A DNA stretch of 30,755 bases, taken from positions 1-30,755 of IMG/VR virus record IMGVR_UViG_3300036820_000650, one strand, 5' to 3'. Position 1 is the first letter of the stretch. The number at the start of each line of letters is the position of its first letter. The position numbers were made by a program, and so were the translations under genes. Below are positions 11,370-30,755 of the stretch, in pieces. The notes under the pieces were generated by a model that had not been told where the DNA came from, did not search any database, and saw only the letters and a list, made by a program, of their open reading frames with translations. The stretch is from a virus.

Positions 11370-11554
11370 TGAAAGGGCCACACAAGTTCGAGTCAACACA
11401 AGTGAATGCGGCCGGGGAGCCCGCAGAGTTCCAACGTATCTGCAAGCGCTGCGGAGCGGTTGAGGCAAACTGTCCGCCAGTTACCTGCTATCGCGTAAGC
11501 TTCTGGCGTTGGCTGGCCCAAAGTACTTTAAAAGTTTTGACGTGGAAGATATGA
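11369..11554 (+). CDS. Small zinc-ribbon-like protein, 61 aa
   Basis: The ATG at 11369 overlaps the preceding stop by one base and the stop overlaps the next ATG (ATGA at 11551-11554), so it is linked on both sides. The product contains CKRCGAVEANCPPVTC (residues about 26-41), four cysteines suited to one zinc site, then an aromatic and basic C-terminal segment (SFWRWLAQSTLKVLTWKI). Function unknown. Confidence 0.5.
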   Translation: MKGPHKFESTQVNAAGEPAEFQRICKRCGAVEANCPPVTCYRVSFWRWLAQSTLKVLTWKI

Positions 11555-12174
11555 GTCTGACTCCCAGTTATGGCAATCTCCCGACAGTCATTGATCCCAC
11601 AGCGTGGGCTGGGAGAACCACAAACTATCTGCTCGATCCTGGGACGGTCCAGAACCAACTGCAAGCGCAACTCAATCTGATCTTCCAGCGGTTCAGTCTG
11701 TCGATCAGCACCTATGTGTTTCCCAAGTTTGACTTCGATACCTGGTGGGCCGGTCCGGACATTGCTTTTGTGTTGATCTCTTATGCCGGCGCCGATCACT
11801 CAAAACCCAAGTCGACCTCCGCTATGCATCAGGAGACGGTGCAGAAGTACAGGTTCACTATCGAGGCTAGGCAGGTTTGCTGGCCGCTGACTGGACCGGG
11901 CTCGGTTTATTACTTGCTTCAGTTCATTCAGCAGGCAATGGGTGGCTTCCAAGTGCCCGGCACGCGCCGCGGCTATTTTACTGAGGAGCGATTCAACGAA
12001 CAGGACCCGCAAGGGCGTGTGTGGCTTTATGACATAACTTACAATGTCGTGTTCGATCGCCAGATGCTACAGCCTATCTACGATCTCGCGAATCTTGTGC
12101 AAGAAAACGTAGCAGTGACTGCGAGCATTGGTGAGAACGTCAGTCCTACAGAAGACTTGGTAATTGAGCCGTAG
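11551..12174 (+). CDS. Mu gp37-like tail terminator / tail-to-head joining protein
   Basis: ATG 11551 with GGAAG a few bases upstream gives 207 residues. Features include LQAQLNLIFQRFSLSISTYVFP at the N terminus, DIAFVLISYAGADHS, a strand QKYRFTIEARQVCWP, a helix GSVYYLLQFIQQAMGG, and a C-terminal strand RVWLYDITYNVVF. This alternation and the position immediately before the sheath gene fit the gp37 family of Mu-like phages, which end the tail tube and sheath. The call rests on pattern and gene order; the neighbouring terminator-like gene at 10522 makes the division of labour uncertain. Confidence 0.55.
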   Translation: MSLTPSYGNLPTVIDPTAWAGRTTNYLLDPGTVQNQLQAQLNLIFQRFSLSISTYVFPKFDFDTWWAGPDIAFVLISYAGADHSKPKSTSAMHQETVQKYRFTIEARQVCWPLTGPGSVYYLLQFIQQAMGGFQVPGTRRGYFTEERFNEQDPQGRVWLYDITYNVVFDRQMLQPIYDLANLVQENVAVTASIGENVSPTEDLVIEP

Positions 12175-12188
12175 GGAGGTGTACCATT
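12174..12188 (+). promoter_or_regulatory. Ribosome binding site and ATT start of sheath gene
   Basis: GGGAGGT (12174-12180) is followed by a 5-base GTACC spacer and ATT at 12186. The site is as strong as any in the window, while the nearest standard start (TTG 12207) is 27 bases beyond GGAGG, too far to be served by it. It therefore decides the start in favour of ATT. Confidence 0.7.
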
Positions 12189-13754
12189 AGTTTCTTTCAT
12201 GGTATTTTGATCACCGAAGTCTCCCTGGGCGGCGTAACGATTCAGGTCGTCAATTCGGCAATTATTGGTTTAGTTGGGACTGCACCGCAATGGCTGAATG
12301 GATCAGCCACCAAACCGGGCATCAACACACCTACGCTTGTCACGACACAGGCCCAGGCTGCCGCTTTTGGGCCACTGACATCCGGCTACACGATTCCACG
12401 CGCCCTGTATGCCATCCAGCAGCAGGGCGCGGGCGCTGTGATCGTCATCGACGTATTCGATCCGGCCACTGATAGCGCTTCTCAGACGGCCACAGCTTAC
12501 ACAGCCCCAGCAACCAATGCCATTCCCATCACTCTCGGTCACATGGGAATCATCGGACCTGGGCTCGGAGCTGTTTATGATCTTGAGACCACAGTCGTGG
12601 TTACGAATTCCGGCGCCACCACAACATACGTCGAGGGCACCGACTACACCATCGACTATGTCAATGGCTTGCTCTACACCAAATCGGCCGGAGCGATCAC
12701 ACCGTCAGAAGCGATCAAAGTTGCGTTCAGCTACTGCTCGCCTTCGGCTGTAACCAGCGGGAATATTGTTGGTACGGTAACGAGCGGTGTTTACACCGGC
12801 GCGCAGTGCCTGCTGAACACGATGGCTACGATGGGAATCACGGCCAAGCTTCTCATCACACCATCCTTTTACGATTCGACCACAGCGACCGGCATGACAA
12901 CGTTGGCCAATACGCTGTCGGCTAATTTCTTACTCGATCTTGCAAACAACACAACTGTGGCGAATGCGATCGCCGCCCGCGGCACATCGGGAAGCCCCTG
13001 GGAAACTGCGAGCTATCGCGTGTGGTGCTGCTTCCCTGGCGTGCTGTTCCAGGACAACAGCATCGTCCCGACCGGAGTTACGATATCTGCGCAAGGCACA
13101 GTCGTTCTGGCCTATAGCACAGGCACAGTAGATTCCACACCTAGCCAGTGGTTTGCCGGCGTGCAGGCCAATGTCGATCTGACTAGGGGCTATTGGTTCT
13201 CACCATCGAACAATCCCATCAATGGTGTGTTGGGACCTGACATCGCCATGTACATGAGCGCCTTCGATCCCAACAGCGATACGAATCAGCTTAACGCTGC
13301 CGGCATTGTGACTGTGTTTAATGGCTTCGGCACTGGCTTTCGTGTTTGGGGCAATCGCAATGCAGCCTTTCCCTCAAACACGAATCCGACCACATTCATT
13401 GCTGTGCGCAGAACACTCGATGTGATTGAGCAATCAATCCAGGTGAGCAGCTTACCATTTCTCGATCAGCCAATCACCAACGGTCTGATCAATTCGATCC
13501 TAAGTGCTGTGAATGGCTTTCTGCGTACGCTCATCCAACAAGGTGCTTTGTTGACGGGCTCGGCCATCACTTACAATCCGGCTGACAACCCAGTAACGAG
13601 CCTTCAGGCCGGGCAGTTGACTTTTGAGGTTGCTGTGATGCCTCCGCCTCCAGCAGAAGAGATCATCTACAACGTTTACGTTGACATTAGTTTGCTGGCC
13701 AATCTGGGTCCGACGATTACCACCACTTCAACCAACGCGAACGTACTGCCTTAA
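12186..13754 (+). CDS. Contractile tail sheath protein (ATT start)
   Basis: From 12186 the frame reads ATT AGT TTC TTT CAT GGT ATT TTG, giving (M)SFFHGILITEVSLGG, the N terminus typical of P2/Mu-type sheaths. GGAGG ends 6 bases before the ATT. The frame has an in-frame stop at 12165 and no ATG, GTG or TTG before TTG 12207, which would remove SFFHGI. The 522-residue protein then has VNSAIIGLVGTAP, YTIPRALYAIQQQGAGAVIVIDVFDP, central insertions, a helix-rich domain (NFLLDLANNTTVANAIAARG), RGYWFSPSNNPINGVLGPDI, FRVWGNRNAAF, FIAVRRTLDVIEQSI and a C-terminal handshake region ending with EEIIYNVYVDISLLANLG. It polymerises around the tube and contracts during infection. Confidence 0.88.
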   Translation: MSFFHGILITEVSLGGVTIQVVNSAIIGLVGTAPQWLNGSATKPGINTPTLVTTQAQAAAFGPLTSGYTIPRALYAIQQQGAGAVIVIDVFDPATDSASQTATAYTAPATNAIPITLGHMGIIGPGLGAVYDLETTVVVTNSGATTTYVEGTDYTIDYVNGLLYTKSAGAITPSEAIKVAFSYCSPSAVTSGNIVGTVTSGVYTGAQCLLNTMATMGITAKLLITPSFYDSTTATGMTTLANTLSANFLLDLANNTTVANAIAARGTSGSPWETASYRVWCCFPGVLFQDNSIVPTGVTISAQGTVVLAYSTGTVDSTPSQWFAGVQANVDLTRGYWFSPSNNPINGVLGPDIAMYMSAFDPNSDTNQLNAAGIVTVFNGFGTGFRVWGNRNAAFPSNTNPTTFIAVRRTLDVIEQSIQVSSLPFLDQPITNGLINSILSAVNGFLRTLIQQGALLTGSAITYNPADNPVTSLQAGQLTFEVAVMPPPPAEEIIYNVYVDISLLANLGPTITTTSTNANVLP

Positions 13755-13771: not shown

Positions 13772-14293
13772 ATGTCATCGCTCGTGATAAACGCTCTCTC
13801 GAACGCCAATGTATATGTTGGTGGCATAGGCTTCCTTGGCCAAGCGGCAGAAGCAACGGTTCCTCAGCCGAAGCGCATTTTCACAGACTATAAAGCTCTG
13901 GGTATGATGGCCCGGATCGAGATTCCGACTGGATGGGACAAGCTTGATGGCTCAATCAAATGGTCCAGCTTCGATGAGTCATATCTGCTACAAGTCGCCC
14001 AGTCGACAGCGGTGCTCCCGTTTAGTGTGCTAGCTGATTTGCAGACATTTTCTGCGGCTGGTGAAATTGAAGAGCAACCGGTGATTTACAACTTTACCGG
14101 TACGTACAAGGATATAGGTAAGATCAATTTCAAATCCCAGGAATTGGTTGAGTTCACGACCGAGCTTGTTGTCTATCATGTGGAGTTGTATGTCGCTGGC
14201 CAGCAGATTTACCTTTATGATGCCTTCTCGAATCAATACATTGTTGGTGGAGTAGACCAACTAGCGCTTTATAGAGCGAATATAGGTTCGTAG
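13772..14293 (+). CDS. Major tail tube protein (P2 FII-like)
   Basis: The 173-residue protein lies 17 bases after the sheath gene with GGGAG 9 bases before its ATG. It has LVINALSNANVYVGGIGFLGQAAEATVPQ, a YKALGMMARIEIPTGWDKLDGSIKW stretch, and C-terminal strands FTGTYKDIG, VEFTTELVVYHVELYVAGQQIYLYDAFSN, fitting the P2-type tail tube family, whose members begin with a similar leader and contain a repeated beta hairpin. It forms the inner tube through which DNA passes. Position between sheath and chaperone is the classic arrangement. Confidence 0.85.
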   Translation: MSSLVINALSNANVYVGGIGFLGQAAEATVPQPKRIFTDYKALGMMARIEIPTGWDKLDGSIKWSSFDESYLLQVAQSTAVLPFSVLADLQTFSAAGEIEEQPVIYNFTGTYKDIGKINFKSQELVEFTTELVVYHVELYVAGQQIYLYDAFSNQYIVGGVDQLALYRANIGS

Positions 14294-17397: not shown

Positions 17398-17658
17398 ATG
17401 CGGTTAATTTGGACTCCATCAGGTAATTCTACTTGCTCCATTGCTGATTGCGATTACAAGAGTTTATGGGAAGGTAAGTGCTATGCTCACATACTCGGCA
17501 AACAACCTAAGTTTTCCTTCGAACGTTTTAAAGAGCTCAATGAGCTCGCAGCTCGAAAAGACGAACTCTTGTGGACTAGTCTTGGTGAGCGCATTACGCT
17601 TGAGGAAGGTGAGATGATCCTTCGACGGATACAGGAAGGGAACTCAGATTGCCCATAG
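17398..17658 (+). CDS. Small protein with N-terminal zinc-finger-like motif, 86 aa
   Basis: ATG follows the previous stop directly. The N-terminal part CSIADCDYKSLWEGKCYAH has the C-x4-C-x8-C-x2-H spacing seen in zinc fingers accompanying phage HNH-type proteins. The rest is helical and charged (FERFKELNELAARKDELLW, EEGEMILRRIQEG). No nuclease motif is visible, so it may be a remnant or regulator. It interrupts the U-X-D order of tail genes. Confidence 0.5.
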   Translation: MRLIWTPSGNSTCSIADCDYKSLWEGKCYAHILGKQPKFSFERFKELNELAARKDELLWTSLGERITLEEGEMILRRIQEGNSDCP

Positions 17659-17936
17659 TCGTAATTCCGGGGCAAGAATCCCCCTATCTCTTGAACACAG
17701 TCCTGGCGGCGATGACCTATCCCACGCCGCCGTCCCAGGGTCTGCTGTACACGGCGAAAGGGGATCGTTGGGACAATATCGCTTACGCAATGTACGGTGA
17801 TCCCACACAGGTAGAATCATTGATTCAGAATAATCCTGGGGTGCCGGTCGCCGACTACGTGGCAGCAGGCACTCCGCTCTTTGTTCCGCTGATCGAGGTG
17901 AGTACGACCTCTACATCAAGTACACCCTGGGGCTGA
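17649..17936 (+). CDS. P2 X-like tail protein with LysM domain
   Basis: TTG 17649 overlaps the preceding gene by 10 bases and follows a GGAAGGGAA purine stretch. The 95-residue product has a proline-rich start and a LysM-like module, YTAKGDRWDNIAYAMYGD, then SLIQNNPGVPVADYVAAGTPLFVPL (residues about 37-82), as in tail protein X. GpX connects baseplate hub and tail parts and may contact peptidoglycan-like folds. Position directly before D (with one small gene between) agrees with the P2-type gene order. Confidence 0.75.
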   Translation: MPIVVIPGQESPYLLNTVLAAMTYPTPPSQGLLYTAKGDRWDNIAYAMYGDPTQVESLIQNNPGVPVADYVAAGTPLFVPLIEVSTTSTSSTPWG

Positions 17937-19191: not shown

Positions 19192-19401
19192 GTGACCGTA
19201 TCCAGGGAACTTACCAAGAAAGAGGAAATGGTCCTGATTTTGATTGCCAAGGGCCGAAGTGACCGGGATATAGCAACTGAGATGGCCATAAGCATTAACA
19301 CGGTAAAGAACTACGGTTACAGCATCAGAAACAAACTTGGGATGGATGATCGTGTCAGTATGGCCATGCACGCGGTCAGAGTGGGTTTGATAATACCATG
19401 A
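19192..19401 (+). CDS. Stand-alone LuxR-type helix-turn-helix protein
   Basis: GTG 19192 follows GAGGTGA with a 4-base spacer. Nearly all of the 69 residues form a LuxR/GerE-type domain: LTKKEEMVLILIAKG, then the helix-turn-helix SDRDIATEMAISINTVKNYGYSIRNKLG, then DDRVSMAMHAVRVGLI. There is no receiver or ligand-binding domain. It should bind DNA, perhaps as a dimer, and might regulate phage or host transcription. It lies in the tail operon between D and an HNH gene that overlaps its stop (ATGA), so these two may have arrived together. Target unknown. Confidence 0.8.
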   Translation: MTVSRELTKKEEMVLILIAKGRSDRDIATEMAISINTVKNYGYSIRNKLGMDDRVSMAMHAVRVGLIIP

Positions 19402-19859
19402 AACGACCAAAACCAAAGATATGGCCAGATCATGTAATTGCCAGCGCAACTAAGCGCAGAGGAGTGAAACGCTCTCCTGAAATGTGTAAGAGGATGTCAG
19501 AGGCCCACATGGGTAAGAAGCTCCCGCCTCGGTCACCGGAATGGTGCTCAAAAATATCCTTAGTACATCGAGGAATGGGGCATTCTGAAGAAACAAGAAA
19601 AAAGCTTGCTCTGATAAACACCAAGCATGGAAATGCACGACGCTCTGTCCGCTATAGGGCTTGGGAGCGCGCAGTTAAAGTGAGAGATAACAGAACGTGT
19701 AGATATTGTGGTAAGGCTGATCTCAAAGGCAGAAATTGTCAAGCACATCACATTCTTGACTATGCAACTCATATCGAAGAGCGCTACAACGTAGACAATG
19801 GGCTGACTTTATGTGTCTCCTGTCACGCCAAAGAACCTAAAATTAAGAAAGAGACGTAA
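19398..19859 (+). CDS. Free-standing HNH homing endonuclease with NUMOD3 motifs
   Basis: The 153-residue basic protein carries NUMOD3-like repeats (KRSPEMCKRMSEAHMGKK at about 24-41 and SEETRKKLALIN at 63-74) and a C-terminal HNH domain: CRYCG (Cys 101, 104), QAHHILDYA (His 117, 118), NVDNGLTLCVSCHA (Asn 131 or 134, Cys 139 and 142). These are the DNA-binding and catalytic elements of group I homing endonucleases. It would cut a target in related phages that lack the gene and promote its own spread. The ATG overlaps the stop of the LuxR-type gene. Confidence 0.82.
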   Translation: MKRPKPKIWPDHVIASATKRRGVKRSPEMCKRMSEAHMGKKLPPRSPEWCSKISLVHRGMGHSEETRKKLALINTKHGNARRSVRYRAWERAVKVRDNRTCRYCGKADLKGRNCQAHHILDYATHIEERYNVDNGLTLCVSCHAKEPKIKKET

Positions 19860-21160: not shown

Positions 21161-21194
21161 ATGGCCGTCGCGACTGCATTGCGCGGGGTGAGCC

Positions 21195-22457
21195 ATTCCA
21201 GTAGTCATCCCATCTAATCAACTGCCAGCGGCCACAGGCACGCCACAGACAGTTCCGGTCCAGCTTCCGAACCCGACATTCGTCAACGATTCGGATGGGC
21301 TCGATCCTACATCCGTGCTTGCGGATATGGTTTCCTATTTCCAGACGGAAGCCGATCGCACTCTTTATCCAGCCCAGCTCGAACAGCTTCTCATCAATCT
21401 TTACGCCTATCGCGAGATCCTTGTCCGGAACAATATTCAGTACTGCGGAATGCAGAACCTGGTTGCCTTCGCTGTTTATCCCATGCTGGATTATCTGGGA
21501 GCCTTCTACGATCTTCCACGTTTCCCTGAGCAGCCGGCAAGCTGTACTCTTCAATTCACATTAGGAGCGGTTCAAGGAAGCTCCGTATCCATCCCAGCCG
21601 GAACGAACATAGGTACAACTGATGGGCTATTCATCTTTACTACCACCGTGCTCCTGGTCATATCCGCGGGTGCCCTGTCGGGCGTGGTATACGCAACCTG
21701 CACAACCTACGGTGATGCAGCCAACGGATATGCCCTGGGTGCAGTCAGTGTTCAACTTCCCGCCCTGACACCTACGATGACGGTCACAAACACGACCATC
21801 ACCGCAAATGGCGCCGCAGAGGAAACAGACAATCACTATCGCTCGCGCATCCAGGCGGCGCCAAACAATCTGACGACGGCCGGCCCTTCAGGTTCCTATC
21901 GTTCCCTAACCCTCGATGTCTCCCCCACAATTGTTGACGCCCAGGTCGTGACTCCGGTTCCTGGTACTGTGCAGGTTTACGTGCTGGCAGGCCCTGCAAC
22001 GGTTCCGTTGGGTCCTCCCAACAATACGGGCCTCCCTACGGCTGAACTCCTCACAGCGGTCAACGATGCGCTATCAGCGGCCGACGTACGACCACTCTGC
22101 GATACAGTTCTAGTCTCGCCGGTCGCCGAAGTCGACTATCAGGTTTCAGGCTCGATCACGCTTTACGCGAATGCGGACTATGCCTCTGTCGCTGCGGGCA
22201 TCAATGCCGCCGCCCAGAACCTTGCCCTGTCGCTTGCGGCAGCAGTCCAGCAGGACATCATTCTCAATCAGTGGATTACAGCCTTGAGTGTTGCAGGTGT
22301 CTACAATCTTGATATCACATTAGCAGCGCAACTAGGTGGTACGTCTCTTACGCCCGCATCCGATGGCAGCTTTCTGCTGACTTCCGGACAGTGGGCGAAT
22401 CTAACATCATTTACACCTGTGATTGTGTTTGGTACGCGGTTGCAGCCGGGGAGCTGA
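21195..22457 (+). CDS. P2 J-like baseplate protein (predicted ATT start)
   Basis: The body is clearly gpJ-like: [119 protein letters not shown] and [13 protein letters not shown]. The first standard start is GTG 21315, but residues upstream of it ([19 protein letters not shown]) already look like the J family N terminus. The frame is open back to TGA 21189, and the best start is ATT 21195, three bases after GGGGTGA, giving 420 residues. A separate ATG at 21161 with GGGAGG opens an 18-codon frame that would need a +1 shift into this one. The body call is firm; the start is not. Confidence 0.8.
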
Positions 22458-22461
22458 CTTG

Positions 22462-25400
22462 ATGAAAAGACTAGCTCTATTTTTCTTTCTGTTGACAGGC
22501 TTACTGGCGCACGCCCAAACAACCCAGATCCTGGGGACGAACATCAGCTATGCGACAGGTGGAACGATTACAGGTCAGTTCTGTATGTCACCTACGGATG
22601 GTTCAGGCAATCCCATCAACATCACAACTTCAAACGGCCAGGGACTTGCTGGCAATGTTCCTACCTGCTTTGCCATAGTTAATGGCACGTTGGCCAGCAA
22701 CGCGATTGTGCCCGATGTTCAGCTTTCGAATCCGATCGACTTCTGCTACAAGACGACGATCTCTGATCTTTCCGGTGGCCCGGTTCTCAACACTTATCCA
22801 TGCTTGCAGCCGACCGGCTCAACCTGGAATTTTAATACGTACGTGCCTGCGGCGTTGCCCCTGACTTATCAACTTCCACAGTTCTATACCAATAGTGTTC
22901 AAAACCCGAATCAACTCCGGTTGAACATCATCGGCAGCACCGGGATTAATGCTGTCTACGGTAGCGGAGGAAATGTCACACTCAGCTTGACTGGGGGTAC
23001 AGGTGGTATTGATTGGCTAGGCGATTGGAGCAGCTCAACATCCTATGTATCCAGCAACGGCGTTTCCTACGAGGGCTCGTCTTACTACTGCTTGCAGGCC
23101 AATACAAACGTCGTGCCCACAAACACGACTTACTGGGCATTGATCGCTCAGGCTGGCGCCACGGGACCCACAGGTCCAACCGGGCCAACTGGCCCTACAG
23201 GTGCAACAGGCCCGACCGGATCAACGGGCTCGACGGGTCCAACTGGCCCAGCTGGTCCTACGGGCCCGACCGGGGCGACTGGTGCAACCGGGGCAGCCGG
23301 GAGTGCAGCAACAATAGCCGTACAAAGTACCACAACTCTTGCCCCCGGTGACGCTGCGACAGTCGTCAATAATGGCTCAAGTTCGGTAGCCAACTTAGCC
23401 TTTGGTATTCCACAGGGAGCTACTGGTGCGACCGGCGCAACTGGGGCGGCAGGAAGCAATGGCGCCGCGGCAACGATTGCTGTGCAGAGTACAACAACCC
23501 TTGCTCCAGGAGATCCTGCCACAGTTGTTAACAATGGTACGAGTTCAGCAGCAAATCTTGCTTTTGGCATCCCTCAGGGAGCAACGGGAGCCACAGGCCC
23601 GACGGGGCCAACGGGGCCAGCAAGCTCACCGGGCGGAGCCACCACGAACGTCCAGTTTAACAATTCTGCGGTGTTCGGCGGAGACTCAACCTTCACATTC
23701 AATTCGACGACTAAGGCCGTAGGTGTTTCGAGCCTGCTCACAAACAACATTCTTGGCACGAGCGGGGGATTGACAATCTCCGCAGCCACTGGCCAGCAGA
23801 CGCATCTGAACAACGTCACTGCGTTCGGCATGTCCGGAGATAACTGGACCACGAATGAGCTGAACACTTACATCTATGTGGACGGTGTGAATGGCGCGGG
23901 CATTAATCAGGACCCGGTCGCGTGGTCGTCTTCTGGAGCCTACCCATGGTGCCAAGAGGTCAGCTACTCTGGCGGCAACTATCTCATGACCCAAGTGGGC
24001 GGGAATGTGGGTACAACACCCGGCACTAATTCGCAGATATGGTATCCCATTACCAATGGGTCTATTCCAACGCAACTTGATTGCGCATTCTACACGGCTG
24101 CAGCCGAAATCGTGTCTGGCACGGGAACTGTGGCTAGCGGTGGAGTGGGCTCGACGATCATTCTTGGAACCGCTGGACGCTACTACACGAACATCGGGCT
24201 GACGGAACCAACGGTCTCCTCGGCTGTTTCCCCGGTCGTCAACATCACCGGCCCCGGACGGACGCAGGCAACGATCTACCAGGGATCATCCAAGGGAGAT
24301 GGATTACCAACCTTGTACGTTCCCGACACCCTAACGCCCTATGCCTTCTCAACCTTCAAGTGGTCAGGATTCACGGTAGATGCACATTATCAAGCTTGTC
24401 CGGCAGTCGCAATCCACGGTGCACAGCAATTTACAATGAACGATATCCTGATCGCGGATGCGACAGACGGCTGCGATCATGAAATTGAGCTAGGAGACGC
24501 GTCAAGTCAAGAATATGGGTGGGTATTTGAGCCGGATTTGAATCTTGTGGATCTGGGAACCTTCGAGGGATTCGGTTCTGGCGCGTATGGTGCCTGCACA
24601 GTTTCCGGTGGAACGCCGTCCTGCACGGTTACGGCTGGAGGCAGTGGCTATGGCTCAGCAGACACAAAGGTGATTCCCGGAGGCACTTCTGATTTCGGCA
24701 AGCCATGCAATACGAATGGTACATGGACGGCAACAATCTCCGGAGGAGCCATTACGGCCATCACGATCTCTGGAGCGAGTGGCTGCGTTGCCCCGGTCTA
24801 TCCGATCATCTTCAGCGGGCCGAACATCAACTACGGCTACAAGCTCTCTAACGTCTCAGACGCAAAGAATCTGCGCAACATGACCGATGGTGGGGTGGGT
24901 TGGTTGGCTGGGATGTGGATCAACGATATAGACAACGCCATTAAGGTCTACAACTATCACCCGGAAGCTGTCGTCGAAGGCGTCTATCAATCTGGCATCG
25001 CTGATTTCTATTCCCTGCAATGCGACACCGTTTTTCAATACTGCGTTGACTTTGAAGGTGAAGGCATCACCAATCTCTATTCCCCGGAGATCGAGTGGAA
25101 CAACGCTAACATGACGGCATCTCGGGACTTCTACATAGGCAACGCGGCCACCAACGGCGTACCCGGATACACCGCGCCGATGGCAATTAATGTATTTGCT
25201 ACCAATTGTCTCAATCAAGCTCAACAGCCTGGATATGCACACTGGGATTCAAACCAAGGTGTAATCGATTCGGTCGTCGGTGGTGACGAAGCGCAGTTGC
25301 CCAACTTTGTGCATGTTCAAAACGATATGTACTGCAATCAGGTATATGCGGGTGGTAGCCCGAACCCAATCACCCAAATAACGCCGAGTGTCCTTGGGAA

Positions 25401-26034
25401 CAACTTCACCATCTCGAACGGCTTTGTGGGTGCAGGGTGGAATTTTGGTGTCACGCCTGGAGCGCTGGGTGGGAGTGGGGCCGGCTCAAGCGTAATGAAT
25501 CTGAGCCAATACAACAGTTATGGCGCGATCGGACAATATCAATTCAACTTCCAAAATCCCACCGCTTCGACCAGCGGAAATGACCAAAACTCGCCCATTG
25601 TCGGTATATGTGGAACTTACTACGGCAGCTCAATTTCGAATCCTTCCTGCTCCACACTGCAAACAGCTTTCTCCGGAACCTCAAGCACTCTCGAATTCGC
25701 GGGAGCGGGGGCATATTCCTTCGATCACAACATTAGCGCCCCAAACATTCCCACCGTGATTGCCAACACGACTTTTACCAGCGCAACCACTACTGTGAGT
25801 GCCAACACGTGCAGCGCAAGTGCTGTAACGGTGACTATGACCGGGGTAGCTACCTCAAGCGTTTTCGTGATCACGCCGAGCACGGACGTAAGTGGATCGA
25901 ATGGATGGGGAGCCAACGGCGGCCTAGTGATTGATGCGTGGCCAACTTCGAACACGCTCAACTATAAGATTTGCAACCAGTCCGGCTCCAGTGTGACTCC
26001 GGCAGCTGTGACCTGGAACGTTGGTGCCAAATGA
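22462..26034 (+). CDS. Collagen-like tail fibre with Sec signal peptide
   Basis: GGGGAG lies 8 bases before ATG 22462, giving 1190 residues. It begins [20 protein letters not shown], a standard Sec signal peptide with an AHA|Q cleavage site. Next are a Cys-containing N-terminal domain (FCMSP, TCFA, FCYK, PCLQP), a carbohydrate-binding-like module near 182-229 ([30 protein letters not shown]), a Gly-X-Thr collagen-like run (about 231-282), two copies of an [15 protein letters not shown] module, and a region near 460-945 that looks like a beta-helix fibre or depolymerase ([23 protein letters not shown]). The end ([40 protein letters not shown]) is probably a receptor-facing domain. It stands between J and I. 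An enzymatic role is not shown. Confidence 0.75.
23155..23307 (+). repeat. Collagen-like Gly-X-Thr repeat region
   Basis: This stretch encodes about 50 residues of GATGPTG-type triplets, the collagen-like triple-helix motif, with low DNA complexity. Shorter GATGATGAAG and [10 protein letters not shown] runs recur after each of the following ATIAVQ modules (to about 23625). Confidence 0.85.
23308..23580 (+). repeat. Two copies of [15 protein letters not shown] module in fibre
   Basis: Copies begin at 23308 and 23470, 162 bases (54 codons) apart. Both encode [15 protein letters not shown] followed by a variable VVNNG segment and [12 protein letters not shown]. The proteins agree closely while the DNA differs at many third positions, so the duplication is not recent. 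Such modules link collagen-like segments in bacterial collagen-like proteins. Confidence 0.8.
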
Positions 26035-28001: not shown

Positions 28002-30755
28002 ATGCGCAAGGCACTCCTGCTGCTCTCCCTGGTCTTTGCTGCCATCCCTGGGCTAGCACAAACGCAGATTGATTTGACTACCCAGGTAAAGGGTATTCTG
28101 CCGCCGGCGAATTTTGCCAATTCATCTCTTACGAATACGACCGTTCTTTACAACAACTACTACCAAGGCATCTATAGCGCGACCGTTACTTACTCCCAAG
28201 GCCAGATGGTCACGTCTTCTGGCACTACGTATATATCTCTCATCAACAGCAATCTCAATAACACCCCAGCTAGTTCGCCTTCTGATTGGGCTGGAGTCGC
28301 GAGTGGTGAGGGAGGCAATGTTACCTCTTGCTCCCTGACGACCAATACCCTCCCGCTTGCCACCGGCGCGGGCGCCATATGCAACTCACTCGTAACAGAT
28401 ATCTCAGGCGTGCTGAACTACTCGGGCACAAACGTTACCTTTCCTAAGTTGACTATAGGTAGTGTGGGCTCGGGTAACTACGTGATCGTAGGGACAGACA
28501 CACTTGGCAACCCTGGCACACAGTATTTCAGTTCTAATCCTTCCTATGGGGTTACTGTCGATGCGACTGGCTTCTACGGGCCAGGGGTCAATGCAGGTGG
28601 AGTAACTGCTGGGGATCTGGTAGTTAGCGGAAATACAAATCTAGGTGAACTGGGCAACGGTGTCCCGGGTTCCCCAATCTATGTGAACCAATACGGTGGC
28701 GGGGCCATTGCCATGCAGTTCAATGGTGGGGTTTACGTCACGGGAGCCATCGAACTTTCAAATGGCTTTGGGACTTCCGGACAGGTGCCAGTCTCTGGCG
28801 GTCCCAGTGGGGTGGCAGCTTGGGGCACTGTTGGGGGCAGCACGACCTATCCCGGTGCTGGAGTAGCAAACTCTACAGGAAGCGCCTGGGCGACTTCCTA
28901 CACGGTGGGCACAGTTGCCAATGATCTTGTCCAACTGAATGGATCCGCGGCCCTCCCAGCCGTATCCGGTGCGAATCTGACAGCCATCACAGCGGCGAAC
29001 ATATCTGCCGGCACGGCAGGAATCAGTATTTCAGGCTCGGCCGCCAATCTGGCCGGATGCACAGGCTCGACGGCCGGTGATGTTTGTTACTGGAATGGCA
29101 GCAGTTGGGCTCGCCTGGCCGGGAACACAAGCGGAACTCTTTATCTGCAGGAGAACGGCTCAGGGAGCCCTTCATGGGCAGCGTCGAGCACAGTTTATCC
29201 CGGAGCGGGCGTAGCCAACTCCACGGGCTCGGCCTGGGCTACTTCCTATACAGTCGGAACTTCAGCAAGCAATCTTGTGCAGTTGAATTCAGGTGCCCAG
29301 CTCCCAGCCGTATCCGGTGCGAATCTGACGAGCCTTACGGCCGCAAATATCTCCAGTGGCACGGCCGGAATCAATATCTCAGGTAATGCGGCCACTGCGA
29401 CACAGCTCACAGGTTGTGCGGGCTCGACGGCTGGGGATTTCTGCTACTGGAATGGATCAGCCTGGACTCGACTGGCAGGCAACACAAGTGGCACGCAGAT
29501 ATTGCAGGAGACATCGTCAGGAACGCCTTCATGGGCTTCGGGAACAGCCTTTACATATCCAGGCGCTGGGGTGGTTTGCTCGACGGGCTCAGCTTGGTGC
29601 ACGTCCTACACGGTGGGCACAGCAGCAAATGATCTAGTTGAGTTGAACGGAAGTGCCCAACTTCCCGCTGTGAGCGGGGCATTGCTGACAAATCTTCCAG
29701 CAGCGAATCTGACCGGGACAGCATCGGTCAACACGACCGGCAGTGCTGGGAGCCTGTCTGCTTTTATCGTTCCAAGAGAAACTACAGTTGCATCTGCCGC
29801 GACGATCACGCCGGGGGGTGCAGGTGGCTTTATCCATATAACTGGCACAGCCACAGTTACAACCATCACCGTTCCATCCGGATGCACTTCAACGAGCATC
29901 GTGTGTATTTATCAGATGCTTCCTGACAATGGTTTCAGCGTCGGAACTGGCGGCAATATTGATGTTGGCGAAACTATCCCAATCAACACGCCTACCCTCA
30001 TTACCTGGGATCAGAATAACGGAACATGGTATTTGGGTAATTTTGGTAATGTAACTACTGGCGTGAGTTCCTTGACCTCAGGTGTTATATCTGTTGCAAC
30101 AAGTCCCTATTCCATTGGCAACTCTTTGCTCTCAGATAGTGGCAGCGCGCTAACCTACTCGGGCTCAAGTGGTCTAGACCTAACAGGAAGCGGTGCCGGG
30201 ATCACCATTTCAGGAGGCTCGGCTCCCGGCTATTACACGCTTGGTACAGGCACAGCATCATTGCCCAGCCTGCCTGCTGGATCTTATGGCGAAGTGGGTT
30301 CGCTTTCCGGTGGAACTCCTTATCTTCGCCAACATGCGAATACTGCGACTGCTGGCTTCGAGGAGTGGGCAGCTCCGGCCACAGAGTACGGCGTGAATGT
30401 AACTCAATCGAGTTTTGTTCATATTCCATTCCACATGGATTCGGTAACTGCTTCTGTTGCGATATATCCGCTTAATTATTATCTTTCGATTGCTTTCCCG
30501 CAGACAGCCGGTCACTTCTCCAAATTGCAGGGCTATTACGATGGCGGTGGCTGTCCGACTCCGCCGTCAATCAATGTGGCCAATATCACGCAGGCCACAG
30601 TAGGAACCGCCCTAGCGTTGAATGCAACCGGCCTAGCGCAACAATCAGAAACCTTGTCATGGAATGCGGGTGATGAAGTAGTGATCGAGATCTCCACAGC
30701 CGGCAGTTGCTCCGGTTCCTTTCACACGGTCAGTGCGGACGGGCTCATACCATGA
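28002..30755 (+). CDS. Repetitive tail fibre with Sec signal peptide
   Basis: A GGGAGGG ribosome binding site precedes ATG 28002; TGA falls on the last base of the window, so the gene is complete at 917 residues. It begins MRKALLLLSLVFAAIPGLA|Q, a clear Sec signal peptide. A carbohydrate-binding-like module (YSATVTYSQGQMVTSSGTTY, NNTPASSPSDWAGVA) lies near 53-103. Three repeats of about 116-120 residues start YPGAGVANSTGSAWATSYTVG near residues 283, 399 and 519 and include CYWNGS-W-RLAGNTSGT in the first two. A shaft-like beta region follows, and the end (795-917, VTQSSFVHIPFHMDSVTAS, ISTAGSCSGSFHTVSADG) is a likely receptor-binding domain. It is probably the main host-range fibre, but an enzyme or secreted adhesin is possible. 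Confidence 0.75.
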   Translation: MRKALLLLSLVFAAIPGLAQTQIDLTTQVKGILPPANFANSSLTNTTVLYNNYYQGIYSATVTYSQGQMVTSSGTTYISLINSNLNNTPASSPSDWAGVASGEGGNVTSCSLTTNTLPLATGAGAICNSLVTDISGVLNYSGTNVTFPKLTIGSVGSGNYVIVGTDTLGNPGTQYFSSNPSYGVTVDATGFYGPGVNAGGVTAGDLVVSGNTNLGELGNGVPGSPIYVNQYGGGAIAMQFNGGVYVTGAIELSNGFGTSGQVPVSGGPSGVAAWGTVGGSTTYPGAGVANSTGSAWATSYTVGTVANDLVQLNGSAALPAVSGANLTAITAANISAGTAGISISGSAANLAGCTGSTAGDVCYWNGSSWARLAGNTSGTLYLQENGSGSPSWAASSTVYPGAGVANSTGSAWATSYTVGTSASNLVQLNSGAQLPAVSGANLTSLTAANISSGTAGINISGNAATATQLTGCAGSTAGDFCYWNGSAWTRLAGNTSGTQILQETSSGTPSWASGTAFTYPGAGVVCSTGSAWCTSYTVGTAANDLVELNGSAQLPAVSGALLTNLPAANLTGTASVNTTGSAGSLSAFIVPRETTVASAATITPGGAGGFIHITGTATVTTITVPSGCTSTSIVCIYQMLPDNGFSVGTGGNIDVGETIPINTPTLITWDQNNGTWYLGNFGNVTTGVSSLTSGVISVATSPYSIGNSLLSDSGSALTYSGSSGLDLTGSGAGITISGGSAPGYYTLGTGTASLPSLPAGSYGEVGSLSGGTPYLRQHANTATAGFEEWAAPATEYGVNVTQSSFVHIPFHMDSVTASVAIYPLNYYLSIAFPQTAGHFSKLQGYYDGGGCPTPPSINVANITQATVGTALALNATGLAQQSETLSWNAGDEVVIEISTAGSCSGSFHTVSADGLIP
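28848..29750 (+). repeat. Three tandem repeats in distal fibre
   Basis: Repeat units begin at 28848, 29196 and 29556, spaced 348 and 360 bases. Each opens with TATCC and encodes YPGAGV-STGSAW-TSYTVGT, then LV-LN-GA-LPAVSGA. The first two are complete; the third lacks the CYWNG part. Several DNA stretches are nearly identical (for example CCAGCCGTATCCGGTGCGAA in units 1 and 2), enough for homologous recombination. Confidence 0.85.

Follow-up and report, generated by a model that had tools for sequence, protein, structure and literature searches.

The window analyzed here is a virus record of 30,755 bases (IMGVR_UViG_3300036820_000650), which carries a contractile-tail module made up of an upstream virion gene, the sheath, the tube, the tape measure, tail X, the gpV, gpW and gpJ baseplate genes, and fibres (Table 1). 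The sheath gene is recognized by the Pfam domains Phage_sheath_1 and 1C, which score 45.7 and 33.1 bits against curated cut-offs of 31.4 and 26.9, and by its assignment to PHROG 23 "tail sheath" (E 9e-74). The Phage_tube gene lies 3′ of it within the module, as expected for a contractile-tail sheath. Over 521 codons compared with the relative G001, the differences at codon positions 1, 2 and 3 number 161, 128 and 323, showing that the gene is conserved at the protein level. An HNH/NUMOD3 endonuclease-like gene (19398-19859) is found amid the baseplate genes, and comparable ORFs occur elsewhere in relatives. Two long ORFs (22459-26034 and 28002-30755) are fibre-like, with signal-peptide-like N-termini and, in one, collagen-like GPTGPT repeats; comparable ORFs are present in relatives such as L061, L063 and L064. 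A promoter and terminator scan gave no signal beyond chance.

Table 1. Features of the tail module around the two ATT codons of the window
Feature	Position	Strand	Details
Upstream virion gene	11551..12174	+	ATG 11551; stop TAG 12172-12174, 11 nt 5′ of the ATT; assigned from homologues
In-frame TGA bounding the sheath frame	12165..12167	+	
Extended Shine-Dalgarno, GGGAGGTG	12174..12181	+	GGAGGTG, a 7-base match to the anti-SD; duplex -15.7 kcal/mol
Predicted sheath start codon, ATT	12186..12188	+	ATG in the homologue column in 27/27; R2 pyocin M1 aligned
Tail sheath, 522 aa counted from the ATT	12186..13754	+	Pfam, PHROG and R2 pyocin alignment
TTG, first conventional start of the sheath frame	12207..12209	+	SD -2.9 kcal/mol; its use would drop 7 conserved residues
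Tail tube FII	13772..14293	+	ATG, SD -8.8 kcal/mol; Pfam Phage_tube 1.3e-32
Tail X gene, TTG start in the window	17649..17936	+	Phage_tail_X 5.7e-10; homologue in G005 has ATT at the start (L044:4651)
18-codon ORF, out of frame with gpJ	21161..21217	+	Begins where relatives begin gpJ
GGGGTGA, candidate gpJ Shine-Dalgarno	21185..21191	+	-10.9 kcal/mol; overlaps the in-frame TGA 21189-21191
Baseplate J gene, candidate ATT start 21195-21197	21195..22457	+	Baseplate_J 3.2e-42; next conventional start GTG 21315

Following the TGA at 12165-12167, the sheath frame reads GCC GTA GGG AGG TGT ACC ATT AGT TTC TTT CAT GGT ATT TTG. The GGGAGG occupies 12174-12179, a spacer of 6 nt (12180-12185) separates GGAGG from the ATT at 12186-12188, and no in-frame ATG, GTG or TTG is present between the TGA and the TTG at 12207. 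This arrangement is exactly the one described in the first-pass annotation, which had also proposed that the sheath N terminus begins at the ATT. The homologues agree with that placement. We found 34 related sheath loci and compared 28 over the start, one of which (L004) begins at a contig end, leaving 27 usable relatives. All 27, many of which are near-identical and hence amount to fewer than 27 independent cases, have ATG in the column of the window's ATT, followed by SFFHG or AFFHG. Residue 1 of the MSFFHG of the solved R2-pyocin sheath (3J9Q) falls in the same column, and F3, F4, H5, G6 and I7 are invariant in an eight-sequence sheath alignment. Alignment with homologues bears out the position of the start, which is common to all, but not the ATT codon itself. 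Some of the related loci differ in other respects: the sheaths of L008, L012, L029 and L031 have about 250 additional residues inserted after window residue 134, and at L167:1504 the sheath frame is apparently interrupted by a frameshift in this contig.

A genome scan with P0002 alone returned 36 stretches and no relatives. We also scanned viral_contigs for a pattern of ATT, ATC or ATA followed by XFFHG and preceded by GGAG; among the 80 examined of the 100 stretches obtained, there was no other sheath starting with one of these codons, so that the ATT start of the sheath is singular as far as seen. Genes initiated at AUU can be recognized by an AUU in the homologous start column without another start in range, by a strong or extended Shine-Dalgarno (SD) at suitable spacing, and by conservation of the start codon among relatives. 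The window sheath displays the first two features and lacks the third, and our proposal is therefore that it works like AUU-initiated genes, for this gene.

We compared the starts of 20 window genes with those of their homologues, and later surveyed 19 conserved families in 168 dereplicated loci. Among the resulting 578 N-termini, three have a non-canonical codon in the start column of the homologues, and in all three this codon is ATT: the window sheath, the window baseplate gene gpJ (21195), and the tail-X gene of the relative G005. These were retained from 24 flagged N-termini that were read by hand. The other 21 were set aside, in most cases owing to a canonical start at the flagged point or shortly after it. 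The rest comprised poorly supported columns, the gpD group, whose near-identical members begin MTPQF, and a frameshifted fragment (L167). As counted automatically in this survey, the sheath column is supported by only 11 of 33 homologues. An earlier survey, noisy from shadow ORFs, flagged 64 of 1024 evaluated N-termini, which were likewise read by hand; a further early run omitted the window sheath, whose start column was under the support limit of that script. ATT starts are found at 2 of 19 N-termini in the window versus 1 of 559 elsewhere (Fisher p 0.003). In the G005 tail-X gene, the ATT stands in the context GGGAGGTACACC ATT, and the others in this family have ATG, GTG or TTG.

At gpJ, the codon in the conserved start column is the ATT at 21195, where all usable homologues, 56 of 56, carry a canonical start, and the next conventional start, the GTG at 21315, lies 40 codons in. 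Baseplate gpJ thus possibly also starts at AUU. Of the 22 other gpW-gpJ junctions listed, 20 have between -1 and 4 nt from the gpW stop to the gpJ start, and the two that do not, L118 and L230, are mis-anchored rows. The window has 34 nt there. Directly at its gpW stop, in the very place at which gpJ begins in relatives, an out-of-frame ATG (21161) opens an ORF that spans the ATT. A +1 shift or an indel could join this ATG to the gpJ frame, in keeping with its position next to the gpW stop, but the product would have added residues that are absent from the relatives seen. Because of the 34-nt gap and the out-of-frame ATG, gpJ is a less clean example of an ATT start than the sheath. When genomes of two phyla were searched, 3 of 396 in one and 9 of 297 in the other carried gpJ homologues at E 1e-30 or better, with identities of no more than 54%.

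SD strength was taken as the energy of the duplex that positions -22 to -3 form with the 3′ end of 16S rRNA. In the ranking of 28 assigned window starts, one of which (22459) is misplaced by one codon, the sheath comes first (-15.7 kcal/mol) and gpJ third (-10.9 kcal/mol). The sheath ATT gene also outranks its whole family in anti-SD duplex strength, as first of 26 (31 rows less 5 mis-anchored inside the gene), and its value is matched by none of the 336 canonical starts in the group. Within their own families, gpJ is tied third of 21 (23 rows less 2 mis-anchored) and tail X of G005 is second of 20. The summed SD of the three ATT genes was equalled by 13 of 100,000 random triplets. In the group as a whole, SDs are no stronger at GTG and TTG starts than at ATG starts (p 0.39), indicating that SD compensation is not a general rule there. 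At the sheath itself, the weakness of the start codon is probably compensated by an SD stronger than any other in the group. The tail-X homologue of G002 (L041), which has a GTG start, carries an SD nearly identical to that of the window sheath.

Taken together, these results point to genuine AUU initiation of the sheath at 12186, aided by the extended SD, as the likely explanation, with gpJ probably behaving likewise. The initiator tRNA would read the AUU as fMet in ordinary 30S initiation, the 30S subunit being held in place by the unusually long SD duplex (GGAGGTG, 6 nt from the AUU). Re-initiation by ribosomes finishing the preceding gene at its TAG, 11 nt before the AUU, may contribute; an SD improves this process, according to the available text of PMC2268962. 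Sheath output would probably be moderate and not crippled, the strong SD offsetting the weak codon. A special initiator tRNA was also considered and was rejected, as a search for tRNA genes found none in the window and none in the 16 relatives' loci examined.

We weighed this reading against others that concern the letters themselves or the point at which ribosomes enter the frame. The sheath gene might really start with ATG, the T at 12188 having arisen in sequencing or assembly or representing a minor variant: ATT is one base away from the ATG of all 27 usable relatives, the searches yielded no relative above 64-65% identity, and the base at 12186-12188 is known from a single record. We regard this as unlikely, since ATT recurs at a second start of this record and at one in a relative, and since the strongest SD of the group is not where an error would be expected to land; both the recurrence of ATT and the strength of this SD argue against an error. 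Moreover, no nonsense codon interrupts the 5585 codons of 19 intact window genes, and the substitution error is thereby bounded at about 0.005 per base. The probability of two ATG-to-ATT errors among 19 starts is then at most about 5e-4, and an error behind both ATT genes of the window is improbable, although one confined to the sheath base retains some probability. Translation of the sheath might instead begin at the TTG at 12207, giving a protein without its first 7 residues. This is the first conventional start and would be the choice of a gene finder limited to ATG, GTG and TTG, but its SD is only -2.9 kcal/mol against -15.7 at the ATT, and the protein would then lack FFHGI, which does not vary in the eight-sequence alignment and of which FFHG is also found in the solved R2 pyocin sheath. 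In the available text of PMC10457771, the N- and C-termini of sheath subunits of phage XM1 and R pyocins are described as joining in a "handshake", which also speaks against such a truncation. We consequently ruled out the TTG, on its SD and on the conservation of the N terminus, as a very improbable start. That ribosomes shift into the sheath frame while translating the upstream gene, or re-initiate without selecting a start codon, seems to us scarcely credible. Such a route could draw on the proximity of the upstream stop and on the out-of-frame ORF that crosses the ATT at gpJ, but between the TGA at 12165-12167 and the last base of the upstream TAG only 7 nt are available for a shift, this stretch has no visible slippery run, and a strong SD at normal spacing makes a shift unnecessary.

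The AUU could also be genuine and act as a regulatory device, limiting sheath or coupling virion assembly to IF3. The first-pass annotation had raised both ideas, and there is precedent in infC, which is autoregulated via its AUU, and in the repression of non-canonical starts by IF3, which disfavours such codons (available text of PMC5472188 and PMC2268962). Neither idea found support in our analysis. With regard to limiting sheath relative to tube, the SD of the sheath (-15.7 versus -8.8 kcal/mol for the tube) would offset the codon, and the other two ATT genes, gpJ and tail X, are not tube partners. With regard to sensing of IF3, no phage-encoded IF3 homologue was found in the 10 phage records searched, and no unusual mRNA structure was detected around the sheath start (z -0.49 and -0.37), RNA structure at the ATT starts in general being ordinary. 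The AUU is, in addition, not conserved in any relative seen, and the strong SD counteracts the weak codon. We thus consider a regulatory role quite unlikely, and retain AUU initiation at 12186 supported by the extended SD as the preferred explanation.

AUU starts are already known from infC, pcnB and cvfC1, to which the sheath would add a further case. According to the available text of PMC13009471, all three non-canonical starts reported in Staphylococcus aureus (AUA, AUU, AUA) have extended SDs, and in poor medium such starts reach about 10% of the output of AUG. In these genes, cvfC1 (AUU), ccpN (AUA) and infC (AUA), a strong extended SD directs the start, as it would at the sheath. They are, however, chromosomal, whereas the sheath is a phage virion gene; the odd start of cvfC1 is conserved among staphylococci, unlike the ATT of the sheath among its relatives; and their initiation was established by ribosome profiling and reporters (PMC13009471, available text), whereas the AUU start of the sheath is predicted from sequence. 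Escherichia coli infC has an AUU start, like the sheath, but it encodes IF3 and is autoregulated (PMC5472188, available text), whereas nothing is known that links the sheath to IF3. In E. coli pcnB, the AUU lies on an ordinary gene, as in the sheath, but pcnB is described as translationally limited (Binns and Masters 2002, as cited in the available text of PMC13009471), whereas the sheath is needed in many copies. The R2 pyocin sheath (3J9Q), compared at the protein level, belongs to the same family and has the same N terminus, MSFFHG, its chain beginning with Met where the window has ATT. No phage virion gene with an AUU start was found in the literature searched, which covered few subscription papers.

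A broader and more speculative reading, which we consider unlikely as it stands, is that this lineage uses AUU for several virion genes, evading start-codon proofreading by extended SDs and termination-coupled re-initiation, such that late virion genes would be translated by rules unlike those of most host genes. If the sheath is indeed initiated at AUU, AUU initiation would reach an abundant virion protein, beyond a few low-output chromosomal genes, and a very strong Shine-Dalgarno could make a near-cognate start serviceable. Gene finders limited to ATG, GTG and TTG would then truncate such proteins, by 7 residues for the sheath and by 40 for gpJ.
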